Shown: piece by piece, positions 33,598 through 38,136 of the stretch
Layout of the letters: each line of letters opens with the position of its first letter
Numbering within the stretch: the first letter of the stretch is position 1
NCBI RefSeq assembly: GCF_003703975.1
Contig: NZ_QTJY01000016.1
Location: 78,868 to 142,867, forward strand
Length of the DNA: 64,000 nucleotides
Direction of reading: 5' to 3'
DNA from: Larkinella soli
GTDB lineage: Bacteria > Bacteroidota > Bacteroidia > Cytophagales > Spirosomataceae
Notes under the pieces: model-generated
What the model was told of the DNA's origin: nothing
The model's database searches: none
Seen by the model: the letters and a program-made list of their open reading frames with translations, nothing else
Translations under genes and position numbers: made by a program

Positions 33598-35250
33598 ATG
33601 AAAAAACTTTTTCTCCCTGCCGCCTGCCTGCTCAGCTTTCTGGCGGGCGCCTTCATCACCGACGACGATATCCGTAAACCCCTGACCGGCGACCTGGCCG
33701 AAGCGGCCGCCCGGGTCATGGGGCTGGAGTTCAACCCGGCCGAGCGCGACTCGATGCTGGAAAACCTCAACCGCTTCCGGGAAGACTACGAGGCCATTCG
33801 GAAAATCGACCTGCCCAACGATCTGGCTCCGGCCTTGATTTTCAATCCTTTGCCTACCGGCTTCAAACTGCCGACCGGCCCCAGTTCGTTCAAGGCCGGT
33901 CCGGTGGGCACGGTGAAAGTCCCGGCCGACCGTAGTGAACTGGCCTTTTATACCGTCGCACAGCTGGGCCGGCTGATCCGGACCCGCCAGATCACCTCCG
34001 AAGAACTCACCCGGTTTTTTCTGGAACGGCTGAAGGCTTATAGTCCGAAACTGCTCTGCGTCGTCACGCTAACGGAAGACCTCGCCCTCCAGCAGGCCAG
34101 ACGGGCGGACTCCGAAATTAAAGCGGGCAAATATCGGGGTCCGCTCCACGGCATCCCCTACGGCGCCAAAGACCTTTTTGCAAAAAAAGGCTATAAAACC
34201 ACCTGGGGTTCAGTACCCTTCAAAAATCAGACGCTTGATTACGACGCCACCGTCATCCGCAGACTGGAGGAAGCCGGGGCCGTCCTCTGCGCCAAGCTGA
34301 CCCTGGGCGAGTTGGCGATGGGCGACGTCTGGTTCGGCGGAATGACCCGCAACCCCTGGGACCCGACCACCGGTTCGAGCGGGTCGTCGGCGGGTTCGGG
34401 TTCCAGCGTGTCGGCGGGGCTGCTTCCCTTCGCCATCGGCACCGAAACCCGCGGCTCCATCGTTTCTCCTTCGACGGTCAACGGAGTCACGGGCCTGCGG
34501 CCGACGTTCGGTCGGGTCAGTCGCCACGGGGCCATGGCGCTGAGCTGGTCGATGGACAAGATCGGGCCGATGTGCCGGAGCGTCGAAGACTGCGCGCTCG
34601 TGTTCAACGCCATCTACGGCCCGGACGGAAACGACCCGACGGTGATCGCGGCCCCCTTTCGATATGCTCCGCTGACCTCCCTGAAAGGACTGAAAATCGG
34701 TTATCTGAGAAAGGCCTTCGACGCTGACTATGCCAGCAAAGCCAACGACGGGCAGACCCTGGAAACCCTCCGGAAGCTGGGCGCGGAACTGGTCCCGTTC
34801 GACCTGCCGGACCTGCCCGTCGGCCGGATCGGCTTTATCCTGACCGCCGAAGCCGCAGCGGCTTTCGACGAGCTGACCCGTTCGGGAAAGGACGACCAGA
34901 TGGTGCAGCAGTCAAAATACGCCTGGCCGAACACCTTCCGTTCGTCGCGGTTCATCCCGGCCGTCGAGTACATCCAGGCCAACCGCATCCGGGCCCGGCT
35001 GATCGACGAGATGGAGCAGAAAATGAAGGCCGTCGATCTCTACATCACGCCCACTTTCGGCAACGCCAATCTGGCCCTGACCAACCTGACGGGCCATCCC
35101 TGCGTGGTGCTGCCGAACGGCTTCACGCCCAAAGGCCGCCCGACCAGCATCACCTTCATGGGCCGGCTTTTCGACGAAGGCCGGCTGCTGGCTGTCGCCA
35201 AGGCCTACCAGGACGCTACGGCCTGGCATACGAAACACCCGGCGCTTTGA
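33598..35250 (+). CDS. Exported amidase-signature enzyme
   Basis: A 550-residue amidase-signature hydrolase related to GatA but with an N-terminal signal peptide (LLSFLAGAFIT), so it acts in the periplasm or outside. The Ser-cisSer-Lys triad is visible: Lys in YGAKDLF (about 183), the Gly/Ser-rich GSSGSSAGSGSS with the cis-Ser (about 259-270) and the nucleophile in ETRGSIVSP (about 281-289). The substrate (amide, peptide or aryl amide) is unknown. It lies 72 bp after coaE. The DUF559 repeat element begins directly after its stop codon. Confidence 0.9.
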   Translation: MKKLFLPAACLLSFLAGAFITDDDIRKPLTGDLAEAAARVMGLEFNPAERDSMLENLNRFREDYEAIRKIDLPNDLAPALIFNPLPTGFKLPTGPSSFKAGPVGTVKVPADRSELAFYTVAQLGRLIRTRQITSEELTRFFLERLKAYSPKLLCVVTLTEDLALQQARRADSEIKAGKYRGPLHGIPYGAKDLFAKKGYKTTWGSVPFKNQTLDYDATVIRRLEEAGAVLCAKLTLGELAMGDVWFGGMTRNPWDPTTGSSGSSAGSGSSVSAGLLPFAIGTETRGSIVSPSTVNGVTGLRPTFGRVSRHGAMALSWSMDKIGPMCRSVEDCALVFNAIYGPDGNDPTVIAAPFRYAPLTSLKGLKIGYLRKAFDADYASKANDGQTLETLRKLGAELVPFDLPDLPVGRIGFILTAEAAAAFDELTRSGKDDQMVQQSKYAWPNTFRSSRFIPAVEYIQANRIRARLIDEMEQKMKAVDLYITPTFGNANLALTNLTGHPCVVLPNGFTPKGRPTSITFMGRLFDEGRLLAVAKAYQDATAWHTKHPAL

Positions 35251-35356
35251 GACCCCCCCCCGGCCCCCTCCTTGGTAAGGAGGGGGTGGCTCCGCAGGAT
35301 TAAATAGTAGCAGCGCACTCCCCCTCCTTACCAAGGAGGGGCCTGGGGGGGTGGTT
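35251..35356 (+). repeat. Left inverted repeat of the DUF559 element
   Basis: A C-rich outer arm, a palindrome CTCCTT-GGT-AAGGAG, a 33-bp core at 35287-35319, then a second palindrome with loop ACC and a G-rich outer arm. The two palindromes are reverse complements, so the whole unit can also fold as one long hairpin. Confidence 0.9.
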
Positions 35357-35712
35357 CATTTTCTGAAACAATTCCGAATCCTCTCCAGCACCTCGAAAAC
35401 GTTTTCTGCAATTTCCTCATTCCGGACACGCAGCACCGTTATGTCAAGGGTGGCTAAAGCCCGGTCCCGTTCCTGGTCGTTTGCCTGGTTTTCCGGCGCG
35501 TCATGTATAAAACCATCCACCTCAATGGCAAGGCGTTCGGCCGGACAATAAAAATCAAGGATAAAATAGCCGATGCTGTGCTGCCGCCTGAATTTACGCC
35601 CATCCAGTTGACTCCTGCGTAACCGGAACCACAGCGCTTCTTCCGCAAAGGTTGATTCGTTCCGCAACTGCTGCCGGATCGGCTTCAATACATTAAGGTT
35701 ATTCAGTTTCAT
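35356..35712 (-). CDS. DUF559 (Vsr-fold) endonuclease-domain protein
   Basis: A 118-residue protein of the DUF559/VSR-like PD-(D/E)xK nuclease group. The opening LRNESTFAEEALWFRLR, then GRKFRRQHSIGYFILDFYC (Asp53) and LAIEVDGFIH (Glu64, Asp66), is the classic DUF559 pattern with an intact catalytic D...ExD core. The target is unknown; related proteins resemble the mismatch endonuclease Vsr. It is a single gene on the minus strand. Its stop touches the left repeat and its start is about 50 bp inside the right repeat, so transcription must begin in or near that repeat. It is unrelated to its neighbours and probably came with the element. Confidence 0.87.
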   Translation of the reverse strand: MKLNNLNVLKPIRQQLRNESTFAEEALWFRLRRSQLDGRKFRRQHSIGYFILDFYCPAERLAIEVDGFIHDAPENQANDQERDRALATLDITVLRVRNEEIAENVFEVLERIRNCFRK

Positions 35713-35760
35713 TTTTAAGGTTTATCCCTTAAGACGGTATTCCGGTCCAAAAGCCACGCA

Positions 35761-35866
35761 AACCACCCCCCAGCCCCCTCCTTGGTAAGGAGGGGGAGTG
35801 CGCTGCTACTATTTAATCCTGCGGAGCCACCCCCTCCTTGGTAAGGAGGGGGCTGGGGGGTGGTAG
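35761..35866 (-). repeat. Right inverted repeat of the DUF559 element
   Basis: An inverted copy of the left repeat. The 33-bp core (35797-35829) is the exact reverse complement of 35287-35319. Both palindromes here read CTCCTT-GGT-AAGGAG on the plus strand, so one of the four palindrome loops is flipped relative to the left copy. Confidence 0.9.
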
Positions 35867-35919: not shown

Positions 35920-38136
35920 ATGATTCGCAAGTCCATTTCCAGCGGGGTGCTGTTCCTGCTGCTGATTGCCGGTACCGCCTTTTCGCAGGAGAAGCAACGG
36001 TTTCGCGACCTCGGTCAGGCCCTCGGGGCCACCGGCCAGCTGACCGGTTCACAGGGACCGGCCAGCGTCAACTGGATTGACGGGGGCAACCGCTTCTCCT
36101 TCATCGCGCAGGGCAACGTGATCAAATCCTTCTCCCCGGCCGACCAGCGGGAGGAGGTGATTTTCGACGGGAGCCGGCTCCAGTTTCCCGGCACCGACCG
36201 ACCGTTCGCGTACGAGTCGTTCCAGTGGTCGAAAGATTCAAGGAATCTGCTGTTCAAGACCAACTTCCGGCCCGTCTGGCGCCGGTCGGGGGTGTCGGAT
36301 TATTACGTCTACTCCCTGGCCGGTAAAAACCTGAAGCTGGTGGCAAAGGATGCGCAGACCGCCGAACTGTCGCCCGACGGGTCGAAGATCGGGTATGAGC
36401 GGGGCGGCAACCTGTTCGTGTTCGACTTTGCTACCCAGAAAGAAACCCAGCTGACGCGCGATGCGGCTCCCTTCTTCTACAACGGCCGTTTCGGCTGGGC
36501 CTACGAGGAGGAGTTCGGGCTGGCGCAGGCCTGGGAATGGTCGCCCGACAGTAAGTTTATCGCCTTCTGGCAATCCGACGAGCGCGACGTGCCGCTCTAT
36601 GCCATGACGGATTACAAGGGCTTCGACGAAAATTTCGAGAAACTCCCCTACCCCCGCGTCGGCGATAAGAACCCGACGGTTCGGATCGGGGTGATCGACC
36701 TGGCCGGGGGCGGCACCCACTGGATGAAGGTCGATGCCGGTGACGGCTATATCCCCCGCATCTACTGGACGGCTCAGGAAGGCCAGCTGGCGCTGGTGCA
36801 GCTGAACCGGAAGCAGAACCACCTGAGGCTGTTCTTCGCGGACGGCCGCACCGGCGAGGCCCGGCAGGTTATGGAAGAAAAATCCGAGGCCTGGATCGAC
36901 GTCTTCGACTTCTTCGCCGGTATTCTGCATTACTTCTATTTCCCGACCCAGACCAAAGAGTTTTTCTGGGTGTCGGAGCGCGACGGTTTTGCCCACATCT
37001 ATCGCTTTGACTATACCGGAAAACCGATCAATCAGGTGACGAAGGGCAACTGGGAGGTGGTGTACGTCCACAACGTCGATGCCGCCAACCGGAAAATCTA
37101 TTATACCTCCACCGAACTGTCGCCCCTGGAACGGCAGCTGTACGTGGTGGACTTTGACGGGAAGAACAAACGTCGGATCACACAGGCCCCCGGCCGCCAC
37201 AAGGTCGATTTCTCGCCCAACAGCCGGTATTTCATCGACCGGTATTCGAGCGTCACTACCCCGACCCGGGTCGAACTGTGGGACACGAAGGGCAAAGCGC
37301 TGAAAACGCTGGAAGACAACGCGCGCGTGACGCAGTTCCTGAACGGCTACGCCTACGCCCCGAAGGAACTGAGCAGCTTCACGACTTCCGACGGCCAGAA
37401 AATCGACATCTCGCTCATCAAACCGCTGAATTTCGATCCGGGCAGGAAATACCCGGTCATGCTCGACGTCTACGGCGGCCCGGGGGCGCAGTCGGTCTAC
37501 AACGAGTTCAGCACTTCCGGCTGGCACCAGTACCTGGCCCAGCAGGGATACATCGTCGTCAGCGTGAACAACCGGGGCAGCGGAGGCTACGGCCGGGTTT
37601 TCGAGAAGGTGGTGTATGAAAAACTGGGGCTGTACGAAGCCAAAGACTTTGTCGAAACGGCCCGCTACCTGGCGAAACAGCCCTGGGTCGACGCCGACCG
37701 CATGGCCATCCGGGGCCACAGCTACGGCGGCTACACCAGCAGCTATACCATGCTGACCCACCCGGGCGTATTCAGGGTGGCGCTGGTAGGAGCCCCGGTT
37801 ACGGACTGGCGGCTGTATGACAGCATTTATACCGAACGCTATATGGGTTTAGTGCCCGAGAACGATACCAAATACCAGAAAAGCGCCGTGTCGCCCTACG
37901 CCAAAAACCTCCAGGGCCGGATGTTCATCGTTCATTCGACGATGGACGAAAACGTCCACGTGCGCAACACGATGCAGCTCGTGAACGCCCTGGTCGATGC
38001 CGGTAAGGACGCGGACCTTCGCATCTACCCGCCCGGCGCCCACGGGGTGGCCTACAATACCGCCAGCTACGTGCTGCTGCACCAGCAGTACACCGACTAC
38101 CTGGAAAAATACCTGAAGAACGGGACGGTCAACTGA
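35920..38136 (+). CDS. Dipeptidyl peptidase IV family (S9) peptidase
   Basis: A secreted or periplasmic serine peptidase that removes X-Pro dipeptides from peptide N-termini. The signal peptide ends near TAFSQ. The N-terminal eight-bladed beta-propeller (about 25-490) contains the dipeptide-recognition motif WAYEEEFG. The C-terminal alpha/beta hydrolase has GHSYGGY (Ser601), the Asp in TMDENVHV and the His in GAHGVAY. The start is set at the ATG 35920 (738 residues), which gives a proper signal peptide; 20 more open codons upstream run into the repeat. It ends at a strong terminator. Confidence 0.95.
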   Translation: MIRKSISSGVLFLLLIAGTAFSQEKQRFRDLGQALGATGQLTGSQGPASVNWIDGGNRFSFIAQGNVIKSFSPADQREEVIFDGSRLQFPGTDRPFAYESFQWSKDSRNLLFKTNFRPVWRRSGVSDYYVYSLAGKNLKLVAKDAQTAELSPDGSKIGYERGGNLFVFDFATQKETQLTRDAAPFFYNGRFGWAYEEEFGLAQAWEWSPDSKFIAFWQSDERDVPLYAMTDYKGFDENFEKLPYPRVGDKNPTVRIGVIDLAGGGTHWMKVDAGDGYIPRIYWTAQEGQLALVQLNRKQNHLRLFFADGRTGEARQVMEEKSEAWIDVFDFFAGILHYFYFPTQTKEFFWVSERDGFAHIYRFDYTGKPINQVTKGNWEVVYVHNVDAANRKIYYTSTELSPLERQLYVVDFDGKNKRRITQAPGRHKVDFSPNSRYFIDRYSSVTTPTRVELWDTKGKALKTLEDNARVTQFLNGYAYAPKELSSFTTSDGQKIDISLIKPLNFDPGRKYPVMLDVYGGPGAQSVYNEFSTSGWHQYLAQQGYIVVSVNNRGSGGYGRVFEKVVYEKLGLYEAKDFVETARYLAKQPWVDADRMAIRGHSYGGYTSSYTMLTHPGVFRVALVGAPVTDWRLYDSIYTERYMGLVPENDTKYQKSAVSPYAKNLQGRMFIVHSTMDENVHVRNTMQLVNALVDAGKDADLRIYPPGAHGVAYNTASYVLLHQQYTDYLEKYLKNGTVN

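Follow-up and report, generated by a model that had tools for sequence, protein, structure and literature searches.

The window, by which we mean the whole 64-kb stretch of DNA that was analysed, contains an intact gene for a DUF559 (Vsr/homing-fold) nuclease of 118 amino acids, encoded on the minus strand at 35356..35712 and called from its open reading frame, Pfam match, alignment and structural model. An inverted-repeat search placed this gene between two arms: a left REPIN-like unit on the plus strand (35252..35350), made of two palindromes in inverted orientation that are separated by 33 nt, and a right REPIN-like unit on the minus strand (35766..35864), which is an inverted copy of the left and has the same build. 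The arms are 99 nt each, 94% complementary, and 415 nt apart. A pattern search of the window resolved two CCTCCTT-NNN-AAGGAGG palindromes per arm, four around the open reading frame, which lie at 35267..35283 (loop GGT) and 35323..35339 (loop ACC) in the left arm and at 35777..35793 and 35833..35849 (loop GGT in both) in the right arm, and to which no strand is assigned. With up to 2 mismatches allowed, CCTCCTTNNNAAGGAGG matched the 64-kb window at exactly these four palindromes, against a mean of 0.18 and a largest value of 2 in 100 shuffles of the window, none of which reached 4. The palindrome loop in the window is 3 nt, and a version of the pattern with a 4-nt loop gave no match.

The element is intergenic: the amidase open reading frame ends at 35250, the right arm ends at 35864, and the ATG of the dipeptidyl-peptidase gene is at 35920. 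An earlier, sequence-only reading had proposed just this arrangement, a single nuclease gene set in an intergenic slot between inverted repeats with two palindromes each, and the arms, the intact DUF559 frame and the neighbouring gene boundaries confirm it. The repeat unit of ~105 bp given in that reading is recovered by including the GA/TC bases at the flanks; the aligned arm itself is 99 nt.

The nuclease and the palindromes of the host genome

The 118-residue protein belongs to Pfam DUF559 (PF04480; 100.5 bits against a cut-off of 20.6), a family whose function the Pfam entry gives as not known, and a protein search with it returned 2469 relatives at E ≤0.001. Across 42 aligned relatives the residues T21, E24, W28, D53, F54, C56, L61, E64, D66, G67, H70 and R95 are invariant. 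The window protein has every one of them, including E24, D53, E64, D66 and H70, in agreement with the earlier claim of an intact nuclease core. An AlphaFold2 model of the protein has a mean pLDDT of 95. When this model was used in a fold search, the top solved match was a Neisseria DUF559 protein (3hrl, E 2e-7), the nearest solved fold outside DUF559 was the homing endonuclease I-Bth0305I (3r3p, E 7e-4), and E. coli Vsr (1vsr) was a weak match at E 0.11; a profile search concurs (3hrl 8e-34, 3r3p 5e-5). The window protein is predicted from the model to fold like I-Bth0305I, and the model and profile together indicate a homing-nuclease fold with a conserved catalytic core. The nuclease is not a RAYT.

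In the host genome (6.92 Mb in 82 contigs), a genome search found one DUF559 gene, and the CCTCCTTNNNAAGGAGG palindrome occurs at 184 sites, compared with 0 for the reversed control pattern. The 99-bp unit yielded 137 first-look candidates, and the 40 that were scored, both arms included, are 83-100% identical. Spacings of 55-59 bp are common among the 50 palindrome sites listed of the 184, and these spacings, together with the window arms, describe inverted doublets able to form one hairpin, as in REPINs. We note that several of the units L006, L009, L010, L013, L016, L022 and L025 of this genome (G000) lie within another dispersed repeat, one that has TTTGGGGAAGCGTT / AACGCTTCCCCAAA ends plus GTCATCC strings and is absent from the window when up to 2 mismatches are allowed.

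Palindromes beside DUF559 genes in other genomes

To follow the pairing of gene and palindrome beyond the host, we scanned genomes with 14 DUF559 query sequences, all taken from palindrome-flanked loci, a seeding that tilts the result toward the link, and kept the best 80 of 578 loci. A CTCC/GGAG palindrome with a perfect stem of at least 9 was present within 330 bp of the match at 64 of these best 80 of 578, and the other 16 had no palindrome by this test. Over the same loci there were 131 such palindromes in 51,199 bp of near sequence versus 8 in 296,988 bp beyond 900 bp, a near density ~95 times that farther out. This near/far hairpin density replaced a comparison of paired with mismatched flanks (22/76 vs 6/226 at score ≥20), which had little statistical force given that the palindrome core is common to different genomes.

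The loci of relatives gave a similar picture. The standalone set of 51 includes the window's own locus, and L101 was excluded because it duplicates L054. GC-rich palindromes lie within 330 bp at 32/51 standalone loci and at 15/19 loci where DUF559 sits in frame inside another gene, and are absent within that distance at 19/51 and 4/19, respectively. Palindromes number 63 in 32,847 bp near versus 2 in 79,791 bp far for standalone loci, and 34 in 12,540 bp near versus 2 in 29,949 bp far for in-frame loci. Among 39 plasmid records with a DUF559 match we examined 18; palindromes are near the gene in 15 of these, and the E. coli, Picosynechococcus and Novosphingobium copies (3/18) have none nearby. 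In the set of 162 loci used below for the nuclease tree, palindrome-bearing DUF559 loci fall in 14/15 named phyla, many of them in metagenome bins, and the sole Calditrichota locus is without a palindrome.

We also considered 37 genomes picked because their own DUF559 locus has the CCCCTCCTT type of palindrome. In 15/37 this type has one or two copies genome-wide, one of them at the DUF559 gene, and adjacency is therefore not a by-product of abundance; only 12/37 have at least 5 copies, the highest number being 78.

Several further observations concern the variety of these loci. A different, CCTTCCC-like palindrome, often preceded by a second hairpin, is found beside DUF559 at L148, L156, L162, L171, L174, L177 and L192, flavobacterial loci included. 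Two of 50,697 phage records (MT835749.1 and MT835756.1) encode a DUF559 relative. The DUF559 copies at L094, L095 and L096 (genomes G046 and G055) are broken by a stop codon, that of L096 still lying between inverted palindromic arms, and these are decaying elements.

Co-occurrence was assessed across 148 relatives, the host genome (G000) being left out, with three palindrome patterns. At least 1 palindrome was found in 51/63 genomes with DUF559 versus 19/85 without (Fisher p 7e-13, uncorrected for kinship), a contrast that is partly circular because the patterns were taken from palindromes beside DUF559 genes. At least 5 were found in 27/63 versus 7/85 (Fisher p 9e-7) and at least 20 in 10/63 versus 3/85 (Fisher p 0.016), both again uncorrected for kinship. 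The DUF559-free relatives with at least 5 palindromes (7/85) are G016, G030, G034, G061, G078, G081 and G147. The sequence-only reading had named repeats occurring independently of DUF559 genes in all relatives as the outcome that would speak against it, and the first of these contrasts is not that outcome.

For comparison of the palindromes with the nuclease tree we used 162 loci, from which rows with stops or with fewer than 80 amino acids had been dropped and in which at least 4 loci are counted twice (L117/L074, L125/L072, L155/L057 and L189/L083); 124 of them have a palindrome of one of four types. Mapped onto a FastTree protein tree, palindrome type required 26 changes, compared with a mean of 54 and a minimum of 48 in 200 shuffles. 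Judged by these sequences, palindrome type follows nuclease lineage. The loop is common to the element and some of the listed dispersed copies in G058, G070, G088 and G118; in G036 and G145 the listed other copies do not share the loop of the element. An ACC(N)NCCY tag occurs within 40 nt, on the C-rich side, of 92/147 palindromes (52/68 loci), versus 47/4000 random windows and 170/3000 C-matched windows, the side having been picked by C content for the count. A second tag subtype has an additional short hairpin between tag and stem. The site that the nuclease would recognise may include a C-rich, ACCACCCC-like tag next to the palindrome.

In-frame elements and the states of insertion sites

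At 19 loci of relatives DUF559 is found inside a long open frame, and the reading frame of the host gene continues across the insert. For 18 of these loci Pfam scans identified the host gene as a class I tRNA synthetase with DUF5915, which we read as IleRS (5); LeuRS (3); MetH (2); CoA transferase (2); a PDDEXK_1 frame (2); and, one each, methylmalonyl-CoA mutase, MnmE, UvrA and a CobB/CobQ-like amidotransferase protein. This last protein carries DUF559 at its C-terminus. No splicing domains were seen in these 18 scans. The flanking palindromes, of which a perfect one is missing at 4/19 loci, are translated in the host frame as repeat peptides such as PSPSPVGRGEGP and LPTGEGSGAG.

When the host gene was used as a label on a tree of 17 in-frame elements, it required 7 changes, the minimum for 8 labels, and 0/500 shuffles were as low. 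For 13/17 elements the nearest relative is at the same host gene, though the hosts differ in genus; the LeuRS and MnmE elements have a nearest relative that is not at the same host gene. Most in-frame elements thus belong to lineages that keep to the same site in different hosts, in the way of homing elements. Such host-gene-tied lineages could have come about by homing or by vertical descent with loss.

As one example of differing site states, we point to the linker of the mutase. G008 has a full element there, with an open reading frame of 880 amino acids, and its eight congeners, which lack the insert, have frames of 720-769 amino acids. Reading the linkers by eye, we found a solo palindromic sequence in G000, G003 and G007 (of another type, CCCCTAAAGGGG-like, in the latter two), none in G001, G002, G005 and G006, and a short C-rich stretch in G004. 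The CCCCTAAAGGGG-like palindromes of L217 (G007) and L219 (G003) are in frame in congeners free of DUF559, and some units therefore occur without a detectable nuclease gene. The exact ends and target duplications of the mutase site were not readable, the linkers being too diverged; no target duplication was read and no strain-level polymorphism was seen.

At the slot of the window element, the comparison was with eight congeners of the host. None of the 8 has an exact match to the window palindrome, DUF559 is missing in 7/8, and the sole copy, that of G008, is located elsewhere than this slot. The sequence-only reading had held that the same nuclease and repeats at the same locus in all relatives would count against it; the element is in the slot in 0/8 congeners. 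The empty amidase/dipeptidyl-peptidase site that it had suggested looking for did not turn up in clean form among the 8, because two congeners (G001 and G005, the latter read by eye) have another gene, without a palindrome, between amidase and peptidase, and in the other six these two genes are ~10.5 kb apart. The slot gene of G001 (L234, 3182-3748) encodes 188 amino acids and is pentapeptide-repeat-like by eye.

Interpretation and relation to known systems

We interpret the window element as belonging to a family of REPIN-like elements that likely spreads by means of its own nuclease, which is of the Vsr/homing type; to this reading we give a probability of roughly two in three. The nuclease would recognise and bind its own palindrome, perhaps as a hairpin, and would nick or cut there by hydrolysis like that of Vsr and I-Bth0305I, not by the covalent tyrosine chemistry of RAYTs. 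Host repair of the break could then insert a copy of either the complete element or a solo unit, in a homing-like manner. This homing-like route is favoured by the fold and by the lineages that keep to one site. To work by a RAYT route an enzyme needs covalent tyrosine chemistry; PD-(D/E)XK enzymes hydrolyse DNA. On the broader proposal our judgement is evenly balanced: that DUF559 nucleases are a new class of mobile element across phyla, in which a homing-fold nuclease, with no transposase, cuts DNA and leaves the copying to host repair, thereby spreading both C-tagged hairpins (REPINs) and its own gene, and can be tolerated in frame in essential proteins such as tRNA synthetases.

The palindromes could instead be miniature elements that depend on a different enzyme for their movement, with DUF559 as a passenger or late coloniser. 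The seven DUF559-free relatives with at least 5 palindromes would fit this, as would the presence of Y1 transposase genes in the host genome; but neither of the two Y1 genes, the only family looked at, has a CCTCCTT palindrome within 1.5 kb, and we rejected a RAYT as the mobiliser. Set against any outside enzyme are the palindrome at the DUF559 gene even where the genome has only one or two (15/37) and the agreement of palindrome type with the DUF559 tree, and we regard this explanation as unlikely. We think it rather improbable that DUF559 is a host or selfish nuclease for which the palindromes are control or protection sites (for example in hairpin removal or replication-fork repair), the repeats being spread mainly by ordinary recombination. 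The copies of E. coli, Picosynechococcus and Novosphingobium without nearby palindromes speak for such a role, and a DUF559/Vsr-like protein of Caulobacter is described, in excerpts of PMC12907096, as triggering the SOS response upon methylation loss. The in-frame insertions in other genes, and the linker that is variously full, solo or empty, point the other way and show the nuclease gene travelling together with the palindromes. That the palindromes serve the DUF559 gene merely as terminators or regulatory hairpins is scarcely credible: the hairpins do adjoin a gene, but they stand on both sides of it, they are translated as open reading frame inside fused proteins, and dispersed copies of the 99-bp unit across the genome contradict this role.

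If the nuclease-driven reading is correct, REPIN-like populations have more than one origin and differ in their chemistry, a second and unrelated enzyme family being tied to its own palindromes. It would also provide a role for DUF559 and account both for repeat-derived spurious peptides such as PPPYQGG and for nuclease inserts inside essential enzymes.

Palindromic repeats of the REP type are common across bacteria. The closest likeness is to the REPIN / REP-RAYT system (REPtron), which, as excerpts of PMC3116915 and PMC3733652 describe it, comprises hairpin-capable inverted palindrome doublets, many solo copies, and one resident enzyme gene between two copies. The sequence-only reading had suggested a layout of this kind with a nuclease replacing the transposase, a suggestion supported by the one DUF559 gene, the 184 palindromes and the recurrence of the pairing in many genomes. 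In REP-RAYT the enzyme between the repeats is a Y1 (HUH) tyrosine transposase and the tag is GTAG, whereas here the enzyme is DUF559 and the tag is ACC(N)NCCY / ACCACCCC-like; DUF559 elements, nuclease included, are also found in frame inside housekeeping proteins.

The Vsr-like homing endonuclease I-Bth0305I is the nearest solved fold outside DUF559, and the grouping of most in-frame elements by host gene adds to the likeness, but DUF559 elements are flanked by palindromes and have dispersed copies without the nuclease. Neither are they homing elements of a self-splicing intron or intein, given that the host frame runs through the insert and that the window copy is intergenic. Rickettsia palindromic elements are likewise in frame inside protein genes, but are not known to contain a nuclease gene.

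CGTC-tagged REPs (including dRS3) share tagged palindromes with the elements described here, and are said in excerpts of PMC3733652 to be without a dedicated transposase. We considered DUF559 as their missing mobiliser, that of Neisseria dRS3 included, and rejected it: among the hairpins beside 18 DUF559 loci examined (12 alphaproteobacterial, one Neisseria) no CGTC palindrome was found, nearby hairpins being CCCTCTCC/CCCTCCCC-like or absent. The Vsr repair endonuclease and VsrA belong to the same nuclease superfamily, though the fold match to 1vsr is weak (E 0.11). VsrA of Caulobacter has a DUF559 domain and is presented as a chromosomal nuclease, and the term palindrom is absent from that text (PMC12907096).

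Among the matches listed in the open-access literature, judged by titles and the starts of abstracts, no paper tied DUF559 to palindromic repeats or mobility. In the papers compared here the enzymes linked to REP-type repeats are RAYT-type tyrosine transposases, and one large REP group is said to be without a dedicated transposase (PMC3733652). The rating of novelty would fall if the nuclease were a passenger. We rate the system as categorically new because its enzyme, and hence its chemistry, is unlike the REP-linked enzymes in the excerpted literature with which we compared it.
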